A stretch of 37,342 nt of DNA from the NCBI RefSeq assembly GCF_020852195.1, contig NZ_JADZBI010000120.1, forward strand, positions 1-37,342, read 5' to 3'. This document shows, one piece after another, positions 981 through 16,863 of the stretch (positions are counted from its first letter, which is position 1; each line of letters begins with the position of its first letter). This stretch comes from Hyphomicrobium sp. GTDB taxonomy: Bacteria; Pseudomonadota; Alphaproteobacteria; Rhizobiales; Hyphomicrobiaceae. The position numbers were made by a program, and so were the translations under genes. The notes below the pieces were generated by a model that was not told the origin of the DNA, ran no database searches, and saw nothing but the letters and a program-made list of their open reading frames with translations.

Positions 981-1310
981 GAGCTAATCGGGCTGAGGAT
1001 GTCGGGAGCTTGGACCGGAGCATTTTCCGGCAAATGGATGCAGCGGTTTTCCGATAACAGACACGACAAATCAAGAAGCAGCCGCGCCTGAGCAATACAA
1101 CGAAAAAACGCAGAGAGACCTTGACCTTAAGGGCACGCGCCCCGCGGGCACGAGGACCGTGCGTCGCCGGGAGGCCCCGTAAGGTTCCCTAGCAGCTTTA
1201 CCGCAGCCGCGAAAGCGCGCCAAGGCAAAGGTTGCTGAAGCTCCTTTCGGACCACTGATCGAGGTCACGGTGGCCCGCTTTTGGGCCCGAACCCTGTGGA
1301 TCACAGGGGC
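981..1310. other. Intergenic region between aroQ and the DsbA-like gene
   Basis: About 330 bp between the start of aroQ and the stop of the DsbA-like gene, both on the minus strand. I see no convincing coding frame, RNA gene or canonical promoter. It should hold the aroQ promoter and the 3' end of the upstream transcript. GC-rich inverted patches occur near 1130-1180, but no clear intrinsic terminator was found. Confidence 0.4.
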
Positions 1311-2168
1311 TTAGCAGTAATTGCAGCCGGTCTTCCTCAGGTCCGTGACATGGGCCTCGAGCACCTCGTAAAGGTTCTCGGGCGCCCCCCCGATGGCCCG
1401 GTCGCCGACCAGGAAGTGGGGCGTACCGTTGATCGAGAGCTTCTGCGCCAGCTCCTTAACCCTGTCGATCTCCGCCTTGACCTCCGGAGAGGCCATGTCG
1501 GCCTTGAGCTTCTCCATGTCGAGGCCGTGCTTTTCCGCGATCTTGAGTCCGACCGCCTCGTTGACCAGTCCCTTGGTCGTGATCAGGTCGCTGTGCACTT
1601 CCCAGTACTTGCCCTGCATGCGGGCGGCGAGGGCGACATGGGCCGCCTGCTCCGACTCGTCGCGCAGGATGGGGAATTCCTTGAACACCACGCGCACGTT
1701 CTTGTCCTGCTCGACCAGCTTGGCGATCTCCGCGAAGCCGCGCTTGCAGTAGCCGCAGTTGTAGTCGAAGAACTCGACCACCGTGATGTCGCCGTCCGGG
1801 TTGCCGGCCACGGGGGCGTTGGGCGCGCGGTAGATCTCCTTGGCGTAGGACGCCACCAGCGCCTTGGTCCGCTCCGCTTCCTCCCTCGCCACCTTGGCCT
1901 CGAGCGCGCTCTGCACCTCGAGGAAGATCTCGGGGTTCTGCACCAGATAGTCCTTCACGATGCCTTCGATCGCGCGCCGCTGATCGGGCGAGAAGCTGGC
2001 ACTGCTGCTGTTGGCGCCGATCAACCCCGTCGCCGGCGACGCGCCGTTCTTGTCCTCTCCGCCGAGCACGAGCCAGAGGCCCGCAATCAGAAGCAGCGGA
2101 GCCGCGACGAGCGCGCCGATGCTGAGGCGCGAGGGCGTGGTCGGCTTGTCGAGATCCGATTGTGTCAT
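1311..2168 (-). CDS. DsbA-family thiol:disulfide oxidoreductase, membrane-anchored
   Basis: Likely a periplasmic DsbA/Com1-type protein that oxidises or isomerises disulfides. The 285-residue product has an N-terminal hydrophobic segment (about residues 15-36) that serves as anchor or signal, a helical linker (60-110), and a thioredoxin-like domain with active site CGYC (138-141) and the cis-Pro motif NGTP (Pro250). The last four residues are CNYC (282-285), an extra C-terminal CxxC. The start at 2168 has GGAG 7 bases upstream; longer frames lack a signal-like N-terminus. It lies 70 bp downstream of the M48 metalloprotease gene, suggesting an envelope quality-control operon. Family certain; whether oxidase or isomerase is not decidable here. 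Confidence 0.9.
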   Translation of the reverse strand: MTQSDLDKPTTPSRLSIGALVAAPLLLIAGLWLVLGGEDKNGASPATGLIGANSSSASFSPDQRRAIEGIVKDYLVQNPEIFLEVQSALEAKVAREEAERTKALVASYAKEIYRAPNAPVAGNPDGDITVVEFFDYNCGYCKRGFAEIAKLVEQDKNVRVVFKEFPILRDESEQAAHVALAARMQGKYWEVHSDLITTKGLVNEAVGLKIAEKHGLDMEKLKADMASPEVKAEIDRVKELAQKLSINGTPHFLVGDRAIGGAPENLYEVLEAHVTDLRKTGCNYC

Positions 2169-14316: not shown

Positions 14317-15448
14317 ATGCGCGCTGAAGCGCAAAAAGTTGCGTCGTCGATCGAAGAGGCTCTGGTCCTCTTGAGGAGGTATCTTTGACCCGGAGCAGGC
14401 CGAGGCACGTCTAGCCGACCTCAACCGGCGCGCGGAGGATCCCGCGCTCTGGAACGATCCCGGTGAGGCGCAGAAGGTCATGCGCCAGCGTCAGCAGCTC
14501 GAGCGCTCCCTCACCGACTTCCGCCGCATCGAGCGCGAGTTCGAGGACAATCTGACCCTGATCGAGCTCGGCGAGGCCGAGGACGACGAGGCGACAGTCA
14601 CCGAGGGCGAAGGCGCGCTGAGGCGCCTCGACGAGGAGGTCCAGAGGAAGAGCATCGAGGCCATGCTGTCCGGCGAGGCCGACGGCATGGACGCCTACGT
14701 GGAGGTCCACGCCGGCGCCGGCGGCACCGAGAGCCAGGATTGGGCGCAGATGCTGACGCGCATGTACATGCGATGGGCGGAGCGGCGCGGCTTCAAGGTC
14801 AAGCTGGTGGACGAGAGCCCGGGCGAGGAAGCCGGCATCAAGTCGGCGACGCTCGAGATCCAGGGCGAGAATGCCTACGGCTGGCTCAAGACGGAGGCGG
14901 GCGTGCACCGCCTCGTGCGCATCTCGCCGTACGATTCAAACGCGCGCCGCCACACGAGCTTTGCCTCCGTCACCGTCTACCCGGTGATCGACGACTCGAT
15001 CGATATCGACATCAACCCCGCCGACGTCGACGTGAGCTTCGCCCGCTCGAGCGGTGCCGGCGGCCAGCACGTCAACCGCACGGAGTCGGCCGTCCGCCTC
15101 GTGCACAAGCCGACCGGCATCGTCATCTTCGCGCAGGAGCAGCGCTCCCAGCACCAGAACAAGGACATCGCCTTCAAGCGGCTCAAGGCGCGCCTCTACG
15201 AGCTCGAGCTCAAGCGCCGCGAGCAGAAGGCGTCCGCCGAGCAGGCGGCGAAGACCGACATCGGCTGGGGCCACCAGATCCGGTCCTACGTTCTGCAGCC
15301 CTATCAGCTCGTCAAGGATTTGCGCACCGGCACGCAGAGCTCGAGTCCCGATGAGGTCCTCGACGGCGACATCGATCCCTTCATAGAGGCGACGTTGGCA
15401 CAGCGCATGCGCGGCGGCAGCACCGCCGAGATCGTCGACCTCGACTAG
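14317..15448 (+). CDS. prfB: Peptide chain release factor 2, made by programmed +1 frameshift
   Basis: Terminates translation at UGA and UAA. The gene opens at ATG 14317 (SD GGGAGG) and reads 23 codons to an in-frame TGA at 14386-14388. The site aggaggtatctttgac places an internal SD (AGGAGG, 14374-14379) just ahead of CTT TGA C, matching the E. coli autoregulatory frameshift signal AGGGGGTATCTTTGAC. Slipping +1 on CTT joins the second frame at GAC 14387 and runs to 15448, giving 376 residues. Visible motifs are GGQ (248-250), for peptide release, and SPY (203-205), at the place of the stop-recognition SPF. Automated calling that starts at ATG 14480 would lose 54 residues. Low RF2 favours frameshifting, so the gene is self-regulated. 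Confidence 0.95.
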
Positions 15449-15456
15449 ACCATGAT

Positions 15457-15483
15457 CGCTTCGGACCCTATCAGTCCGAAGCG
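15457..15483 (+). terminator. Perfect hairpin just after prfB
   Basis: Ten-bp perfect stem cgcttcggac / gtccgaagcg with a 7-base loop, 8 bp after the prfB stop. No T-run follows (tagatcatcc), so it may be a weak terminator, an mRNA 3'-end stabiliser, or an interspersed repeat. Flanking atgatc / gatcat extend its symmetry. Confidence 0.5.
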
Positions 15484-15532
15484 TAGATCATCCGTCTCAT
15501 CAAAAAGGAGCGGCAGCGGTCATCGCGCAGAC

Positions 15533-15794
15533 GGCAACGGCTTCCTCCCAGCCCGTTGCCTCCTGACTGCTGCTTCTTCCTTCCGTGTTCCCTAGGGGAC
15601 AGCGGACCCCTCATAAAAGATTATGGTCCGATCCGTGGGAACCAAAGCGCCCTCCCCGCTGTTCCCACTACCCCGCCGGAGCCGCCCCCCACGCTCCGGT
15701 GAAACAGAGCGCCGCCGCGGTTCCCCCCAACCATGCTCGGGGGCGCTCTTGATACGGCCGGCCCCCCAGGTCCCCCGCTGGGGGGCCCATTTTT
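15533..15794 (+). ncRNA. Candidate structured small RNA with C-rich hairpin loops
   Basis: This gene-free stretch forms six successive hairpins. H1 15533-15560 has an 8-bp stem and loop cttcctcccagc. H2 15603-15630 is cggac-cataa / ttatg-gtccg. H3 15635-15668 is gtgggaac-agcg / cgct-gttcccac with loop ccctccc. H4 15674-15701 is built on ccggagc / gctccgg with loop cgccccccac. H5 15706-15749 is agagcgcc / ggcgctct with an inner ggtt-cccccc-aacc. H6 is the terminator, 15760-15787, with loop gtcccccg. Five of six loops present C5-C6 or CCTCCC. Alphaproteobacterial 'cuckoo'/CcsR and ar14-type sRNAs display CUCCUCCC (anti-SD) in loops; H1 matches 7 of 8 bases. No obvious promoter was found, so it could be its own gene or a prfB 3'-UTR product. 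Confidence 0.55.
15760..15794 (+). terminator. Strong intrinsic terminator
   Basis: Perfect 10-bp stem ggccccccag / ctggggggcc, loop gtcccccg, followed by CA and TTTTT (15790-15794). It lies 310 bp past prfB and 136 bp before the next start codon, and closes the hairpin array. Confidence 0.88.
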
Positions 15795-15930
15795 CTCAGG
15801 CCAGCTCAGGAAACCTCCGGATTGGCGAGCAACGCTCGCGCACCTATATGCCGGTCAGGATGAGCCCCGGGGGGCCTCGGCCGATCATCCGTCACGTCAG
15901 CCAGAAAGATCGCGAGAAGGAGGTGCCGCC

Positions 15931-16863
15931 ATGCAGACGCGCCGGAGTTTCTTGAGCTCGACATCGGCCGCGGCCGCCGTGCTGGCCATGGCTCCCTTCG
16001 GCAGTGCGGGAGCAGACACGGCGACCCCGGCCGAGGGCGCCCTGGCCACGCGCGCGATCCCCGCCACCGGCGAGAAGATACCCGTCATCGGAATGGGCAC
16101 CTCCGGCAGCTTCGAGGTCGGCGAGGGCACACCCGAATATGATGCCCTGCGCGAGGTCCTGAAGGTGTTCTTCGCCGGCGGCGGCACGGTGATCGACACC
16201 GCCCCCACCTACAGCAATGCCGAGGACGTGCTGGGCGCCCTCCTCGCCGAGCAGAACCTGCGCCCGAAGACCTGGCTCGCCACCAAGCTTTCGGGTGTGC
16301 GCGGACGCGACGCCGGGCTTGCCCAGTTCAACAACACCCTCGGCCGTCTCAAGACCGACAAGGTCGAGCTGCTGCAGGTGCACAACCTCGGCGATCTCAA
16401 GACGCAGCTCGCCCTCGCCCGCGAGCTCAAGGCCGAAGGCAAGACCCGCTACGTCGGCGTCACGCACTATCTGGAGTACGCCCACGACGAGCTGGCCGAC
16501 ATCGTCGCGGCCGAGAAGCCGGACTTCCTGCAGATCAACTATTCCGTGGTCACCCGCGGCGCGGAGAAGCGCCTCTTCCCGCTGGCCAAGGACCTCGGCG
16601 TGGCGGTGATGATCAACCGCGCCTTCGAGGACGGCAAGCTGTTCGGGCGCGTCAAGGACAAGCCGCTTCCCGACTGGACCGCGGCCGCCGGCATCACCTC
16701 CTGGGCGCAGGCGTTCCTGAAGTTCGCGCTGAGCAACCCCGCGGTGACGGTGGTGATCCCGGCCACCGGCAAGCCGCATCGCCAGGCGGACAATCTGAAG
16801 GCCGGCCTTGGGCCGAACCTGACGGAGGAGCAGCGCGCCTCCCTGATCGCGGCCTTGGCATAG
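15931..16863 (+). CDS. Aldo/keto reductase with twin-arginine signal
   Basis: NAD(P)H-type aldo/keto reductase fold, 310 residues, probably exported folded. The N-terminus MQTRRSFLSSTSAAAAVLAM is a Tat signal (RRSFL). The AKR tetrad is visible as Asp89 and Tyr94 (DTAPTY), Lys119 (ATK) and His151 (QVHN). Substrate is unknown; a periplasmic AKR raises the question of its electron donor. The start at 15931 is set by AAGGAGG 7 bases upstream. A transporter gene begins 6 bp after the stop, so the two are almost certainly co-transcribed. Confidence 0.9.
   Translation: MQTRRSFLSSTSAAAAVLAMAPFGSAGADTATPAEGALATRAIPATGEKIPVIGMGTSGSFEVGEGTPEYDALREVLKVFFAGGGTVIDTAPTYSNAEDVLGALLAEQNLRPKTWLATKLSGVRGRDAGLAQFNNTLGRLKTDKVELLQVHNLGDLKTQLALARELKAEGKTRYVGVTHYLEYAHDELADIVAAEKPDFLQINYSVVTRGAEKRLFPLAKDLGVAVMINRAFEDGKLFGRVKDKPLPDWTAAAGITSWAQAFLKFALSNPAVTVVIPATGKPHRQADNLKAGLGPNLTEEQRASLIAALA

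Follow-up and report, generated by a model that had tools for sequence, protein, structure and literature searches.

What occupies the gene-free stretch that follows prfB in this Hyphomicrobium contig? The window (the whole stretch of DNA that was analysed, 37,342 nt) had been given a sequence-only reading that placed here a single RNA of up to 260 nt with six consecutive hairpins, C-runs in its loops and a terminator of its own, and that left the choice between a new sRNA family and a divergent member of the cuckoo/CcsR/ar14 group. The absence of genes was borne out, and a terminator search did find an intrinsic terminator at the end of the stretch (15760-15794). The answer that we favor, with a probability of roughly 0.7, is a free-standing gene for a trans-acting sRNA that would be controlled by Clr and cAMP and whose C-run loops would silence messages with G-rich sites; its transcript is probably about 160 nt rather than 260. 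The features on which this depends are the following.

14480-15448, plus strand: prfB (release factor 2; Pfam RF-1 and PCRF, PF00472/PF03462), not part of the RNA
15532-15560, plus strand: first hairpin of the sequence-only reading, loop cttcctccc; the tip of the spacer hairpin after prfB
15586-15601, no strand assigned: probable Clr-type (cAMP-CRP-like) operator TGTTCCCTAGGGGACA; second hairpin of the sequence-only reading
15622-15627, plus strand: -10-like hexamer TATGGT, picked from the sequence, implying a start near 15634
15634-15794, plus strand: the whole predicted sRNA, about 161 nt with an inferred 5' end; covariance model match 15630-15792
15635-15668, plus strand: hairpin A, loop CCCTCCC (15650-15656), anti-Shine-Dalgarno-like
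15674-15701, plus strand: hairpin B, loop C-run 15685-15690
15707-15748, plus strand: hairpin C, loop TTCCCCCC (15721-15728)
15760-15794, plus strand: hairpin D, the terminator, loop GTCCCCCG, T-run 15790-15794

That this interval is highly structured is readily apparent from its folding energy: positions 15520-15800 fold at -124.1 kcal/mol, against a mean of -101.8 kcal/mol for shuffled versions (z = -4.13), and none of 200 shuffles was as stable. The six stems do lie about where the sequence-only reading had put them, but only four (A-D) are part of one conserved RNA. These four span the distance from GTGGGAAC (15635) to the terminal T-run, each with a C-run in its loop, and in the window sequence the unpaired probabilities of these runs are 0.88, 0.99, 1.0 and 0.99 for loops A to D. 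The four loop C-runs recur in each of the eight homologues, and 31 of the 32 are unpaired at 0.83 or more, the lowest value (0.60) being that of loop A in genome G001. Unpaired C-runs in the apical loops of stable stems are the hallmark of the trans-acting sRNAs with C-rich loops, and they are what we find here; the earlier suggestion of an sRNA whose loops are able to meet G-rich ribosome-binding sites is well supported.

A covariance model (R1) built from the eight Hyphomicrobium sequences scores them at 134-166 bits; the match in the window (15630-15792) has 153.8 bits, the window sequence itself being among the model's eight. In this set of eight sequences from eight Hyphomicrobium genomes, with 45 base pairs, 96.0% of the cells are paired and 15 of the 45 pairs (27 cells) are doubly changed, and neither number was reached in any of 500 shuffles. 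A lack of compensatory change in the homologous regions had been named by the sequence-only reading as grounds for refutation, and the RNA passes this test. The covariation score points the same way (0.258 versus 0.143 in the shuffles, none of the 500 being as high), and in slid-strand controls the pairing falls to 43-52%; the measure of "further pair types" was not above the shuffles (265 of 500). It is hairpins B (8 of 11 pairs doubly changed) and C (6 of 13, in helices 5 and 6) that provide the support, with one pair of 10 in A and none in D, where 9 of the 11 pairs are invariant. On a prfB tree from FastTree, in which several nodes have weak support, parsimony over Watson-Crick types yields 21 inferred double-change events in the 15 pairs. 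With this evidence in hand, we regard a real sRNA at this locus as close to certain.

The two remaining stems have other explanations. In the eight-genome alignment conservation starts at about TGTTCCC (15586), and the first stem lies ahead of it in an unconserved spacer that runs from the prfB stop to the operator. This spacer measures 17-137 nt and differs in sequence among the seven genomes with that arrangement; in several of them it folds into a single long hairpin with a pyrimidine-rich stretch after it, and the hairpin may belong to the 3' end of prfB. The second stem, 15586-15601, was rejected as an RNA helix: compensatory change is absent from its six outer pairs, which a C-A or C-T mismatch interrupts in four of the eight genomes, and the six positions of the Clr core are invariant. 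The seventh pair, in the free center of the palindrome, is unpaired in four genomes, C-G in three and G-C in one. The stretch fits a DNA site better and is most likely a promoter operator, with the core GTNNCNNNNGNNAC in all eight genomes and the full consensus HGTYHCNNNNGRWACA on at least one strand in all eight, core and consensus being those given for Clr in the excerpted text of PMC10127613. According to part of another study, the CRP-like Clr of Sinorhizobium meliloti binds TGTTCCGCGGGAAACA at smc02178 (PMC4222275).

A stricter pattern, TGTYCC-N4-GGRACA, is present at 14 places in the window's genome, where the reversed pattern has none, and over the eight genomes the counts are 67 and 4; the sRNA operators of G001 and G003 match the core without conforming to this pattern. 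Some of the 14 sites (L074-L087) are near genes for surface or envelope proteins; two of them share contigs with cyclase genes (two of the three in the genome), one of this pair being close to a FecR-domain gene. It is possible that these sites mark a Clr regulon.

The distance from the operator to GGAAC, the first conserved motif of the RNA, is 36 nt in seven genomes and 35 in one, and the intervening bases vary. Inspection by eye finds TATGGT or TAAGGT 20 nt after the operator in five of the eight genomes; the box is poor in G003, G006 and G001. The start would accordingly be placed near 15634 and the operator center near -40.5, an arrangement that, to judge from the sequence, corresponds to a class II CRP promoter. 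An EcfG-type promoter (GGAAC-N16/17-CGTT) was set aside by eye, GGAAC being only partly kept. The predicted center of about -40.5, which comes from the -10-like box only, compares with sites at -42 to -76 in most Clr-activated promoters of S. meliloti, as reported in the excerpts of PMC10127613. All in all, we consider the operator very probably functional.

A plausible regulator is encoded in the same genome, which has 14 HTH_Crp_2 matches (11 of them over the cut-off) and three cyclase matches. One of the Crp-like genes is immediately followed by a MASE7-cyclase gene. The product of this Crp-like gene has a single PDB sequence match below 1e-30, 7pza (E 1.1e-46), and the two proteins share GASRPKVN in the helix-turn-helix region. 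The entries 7PZA and 7PZB are S. meliloti Clr, which responds to both cAMP and cGMP (PMC10127613, in part). A Clr-like gene adjoins a class III nucleotide cyclase gene in all eight genomes, the Clr-like assignment being made from the best PDB match of one of the Crp paralogues. Pfam does not separate adenylate from guanylate cyclases.

Could the RNA nevertheless belong to one of its neighbors? The sequence-only reading set it next to prfB, which is correct for seven of the eight genomes and fails in G003. Both prfB and an aldo-keto reductase gene flank it in six (for the window both names are Pfam-based), and this position, with a terminator upstream of the reductase, would suit a cis element, either an RNA derived from the prfB 3' UTR or a leader or attenuator of the reductase. 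The exceptions argue against this: in G003 the RNA lies between an opposite-strand cytochrome-c-like gene and an aldo-keto reductase gene, with prfB about 167 kb away, whereas in G005 prfB is upstream, a convergent ArsC-like gene is downstream and the loci examined hold no aldo-keto reductase (the cytochrome and ArsC-like names come from reading the translations). Since prfB is not adjacent in one genome nor the reductase in another, and the RNA has its own operator in all eight, the evidence argues for a free-standing gene and for neither a prfB 3' UTR product nor a reductase leader; a cis element seems to us quite improbable. The sign of the control is a separate matter. An operator overlapping the -35 region might block transcription at high cAMP, much as CRP represses Spot 42 in E. 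coli. Such repression would agree with the operator standing in place of a -35 box and with the failure to find any sigma-70-type promoter in 15000-16500, but the 20-nt distance to the -10-like box in five genomes fits class II activation, and most Clr-activated promoters of S. meliloti have their sites at -42 to -76 (PMC10127613, excerpts). We therefore consider repression unlikely and infer activation.

The way in which the RNA acts, and the family to which it belongs, could also be otherwise. Repeated loops of one kind would suit a sponge or protein-binding RNA whose C-runs capture a protein or G-rich sRNAs instead of mRNAs, and the mRNA targets presented below are candidates only; still, for sX13, a C-loop sRNA that has been characterised, the targets are mRNAs with G-rich motifs (PMC3771888, in the part available), and we hold a sponge to be about as unlikely as repression. 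Kinship with the alpha-r14/NfeR1/CcsR "cuckoo" sRNAs, one of the two options of the sequence-only reading, has in its favor an alphaproteobacterial host, several hairpins and C-rich, anti-Shine-Dalgarno-like loops. Rfam holds a covariance model of that family, but no such match is among the four that Rfam 15 gives for 15400-15900 at laxer limits (E up to 10), the best of which reaches 18.6 bits against a cut-off of 45. At gathering scores no Rfam 15 family matches the stretch, and a tRNA is the sole match in the window. The family is defined, in the excerpted text of PMC10746234, by CCUCCUCCC in an unpaired region of each of three hairpins, but CCUCCUCCC is absent from all eight RNAs and from 15533-15794 of the window; the number of hairpins (four) and the neighbors are different as well. 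A divergent cuckoo member is consequently the least credible explanation considered here, and a new sRNA family the better alternative.

On the reading that we prefer, a trans-acting sRNA activated by Clr, a rise in cAMP (or cGMP) would lead the Clr-type receptor, encoded beside a cyclase gene, to bind 15586-15601 and, some 40 bp before the start, to recruit RNA polymerase, as CRP does at class II promoters. The RNA would end at its own terminator, and its loops CCCUCCC, CCCCCC, UUCCCCCC and GUCCCCC would pair with G-runs at ribosome-binding sites and so block translation. We think it likely that the sRNA acts by such C-loop pairing, somewhat less so than that its operator is functional.

Which messages might be affected? 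Sites of the form GGGGGAAC-N2-11-ATG, in which GGGGGAAC is complementary to the form that loops C and D take in most homologues, make up a list of 79 rows over the eight genomes (76 distinct sites, 62 of them with a frame of at least 25 aa). The largest cluster of orthologs among them, with five genomes, is a flagellar regulator, and the seven other clusters have two members each. It encodes an OmpR-type response regulator (Trans_reg_C) directly before flgE, flgK and flgL, with flhA further on, and from this gene setting and remembered sequences we take it to be Rem/FtcR; none of the 25 NCBIfam matches listed for it is over the cut-off. Flagellar genes are found near FtcR-like genes in most of the species compared in the excerpts of PMC8639532. 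In the five genomes seen, the leader of the regulator gene has G-runs near -50, -30 and -13 in every case. Two 200-kb stretches each contain a single triple G-run of this kind ahead of an ATG, namely at the flagellar regulator, and by loop-pairing energy the regulator ranks 1 of 141 and 1 of 137 crudely called gene starts, ranks that are tied to the search that had picked out the gene, the stretches having been found by the same motif. In G001 rank 2 falls to flgK, where a G-run is present within the 60 nt upstream of the start in five of five genomes. Such runs are common before starts, being also present at flgE (2/5), flgL (2/5) and flhA (3/5).

The window's own genome, G002 and G004 together have 20 exact sites, none of them in front of the flagellar regulator, and the gene was not located in these three; nor was it found in 40 stretches of G051, G020 and G017, which represent genera without the sRNA. 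About 80-100 nt before the flagellar regulator of five genomes (L134, L149 and L127-L129) there is a conserved element, TCCTCAACAAATCGTTGAT, with one base different in G006; it is possibly an activator site.

The life cycle of Hyphomicrobium alternates between motile swarmers and sessile mother cells. Of the targets found, the Rem/FtcR-like regulator gene, with its three leader G-runs, is the most likely, and its silencing would link cAMP to a loss of motility. We rate it a tentative target, with the odds slightly against it, and are a little more doubtful still of the complete chain, in which a genus-specific family of sRNAs activated by Clr and cAMP would silence the flagellar master regulator by setting several C-loops against several G-runs of one leader, and in which cAMP would shut down motility indirectly. 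In S. meliloti, Clr lowers motility, and the flagellar genes repressed by it, which have no Clr box, are probably indirect targets (PMC5498481, in part). Were it true, the question of how cAMP lowers motility would have one of its answers in a Clr-driven sRNA that acts on the flagellar regulator.

A second conserved site was set aside as a target. The complement of loop A plus one base, GGGGAGGG, gave 139 sites, of which 10 were looked at, and it precedes a speD-type gene in seven of the eight genomes. However, 93 of the 112 aligned columns of the speD leader are identical in seven Hyphomicrobium genomes, and the leader has a CCCC run of its own that can pair with the site in cis. Because the leader is conserved as a whole and offers this cis pairing, the conservation of GGGGAGGG has another likely cause; leader conservation alone can give such target clusters. 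The leader itself (L120-L126; for example L123, about 1304-1410, minus strand) is about 105 nt long and precedes a gene for S-adenosylmethionine decarboxylase (TIGR03330 for L123). Its C-run could pair with a G-rich ribosome-binding site and it has no Rfam match; it looks like an undescribed cis-regulatory RNA. In G007 (L125, 313-657) the leader is followed by a 114-aa frame without the decarboxylase middle that is present in the other genomes.

As far as we have searched, the sRNA appears to be confined to the genus Hyphomicrobium. When 100 relatives were searched at the DNA level, six other genomes of the genus gave a match to the stretch; the RNA of G001 escaped this search and was recovered by reading the region downstream of its prfB, and then by R1. 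The model matches all eight of the Hyphomicrobium genomes searched and, at E 0.01 with strict filters, none of 95 other genomes of the same family. With laxer filters and E up to 1, the best further match in 40 relatives (L105, 1.7e-4) is in another family of the order, and a search of 397 genomes of the order with E up to 0.01 gave four in Hyphomicrobium and two in one other genus. The matches outside the genus (L105; L110, 9.8e-5; L111, 0.007) are all multi-hairpin RNAs with C-rich loops and with stems other than those of the Hyphomicrobium sRNA, and we regard them as analogues or as very distant kin. The first, L105 (1501-1642), is from a third family of the order and has loops with CCCCUC, CCCCCUCCCCUC and CUCCUCCC; L110 (1501-1635) and L111 (1501-1630), from a different family of the order, have a C-run in the terminator loop. 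The Clr core is absent from L110 and L111 between 200 nt upstream and the end of the match, while in L105 there are two matches to the core only, the first 33 nt upstream of the RNA match and the second within it; we estimate that a stretch of that length has one such match by chance about 1 time in 12. The matches L106-L109 (E 0.25-0.69) were taken as chance, and pattern matches in Rhizobium oryzicola and a Bacillota MAG were discarded, R1 giving no match there up to E 10. The DNA search also matched a dispersed palindromic repeat (window 15449-15507); the window's genome has at least five further copies of it, and in G002 and G005 there are copies close to one another.

What emerges is a conserved structured RNA without an Rfam match, together with a probable regulator, a probable promoter and a candidate target; the literature searched contained no paper on an sRNA of Hyphomicrobium. 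How does it compare with known systems? The 6C RNA of Actinobacteria has two hairpins whose loops contain runs of six or more C, and the Hyphomicrobium sRNA resembles it in its C-run hairpin loops and differs in phylum and in hairpin number; Rfam gives no match of that name in the window. With the alpha-r14/NfeR1/cuckoo RNAs, as portrayed in the excerpts of PMC10746234, it shares an alphaproteobacterial host, a multi-hairpin form, anti-Shine-Dalgarno-like loops and several seeds, but not the defining motif, the hairpin number or the neighbors, and NfeR1 is under the control of LsrB and NtrC where the Hyphomicrobium sRNA is probably under that of Clr. The sX13 RNA of Xanthomonas, which acts through C-rich loops on the G-rich motifs of mRNAs near their start codons (PMC3771888, in part), is similar in its stable stems with apical C-rich loops and in the kind of site addressed, here as candidate targets. 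It differs in having three loops instead of four, and a Clr-type operator is present in Hyphomicrobium; homology between the two is not shown, the sX13 model (RF02232) scoring 13.1 bits where its gathering score is 50. As judged from its sequence, then, our sRNA resembles the sX13-type RNAs in its working parts and is a member of no family tested. For its control the closest parallel, judged by its description, is SMelC181 of S. meliloti, a name that occurs in one paper of the literature searched and is absent from the main text of PMC2873474. According to the available text of PMC10127613, few studies report sRNAs under CRP control, and the gene of SMelC181, whose function is unknown, is directly activated by Clr with cAMP or cGMP, just as we propose for the sRNA gene of Hyphomicrobium.
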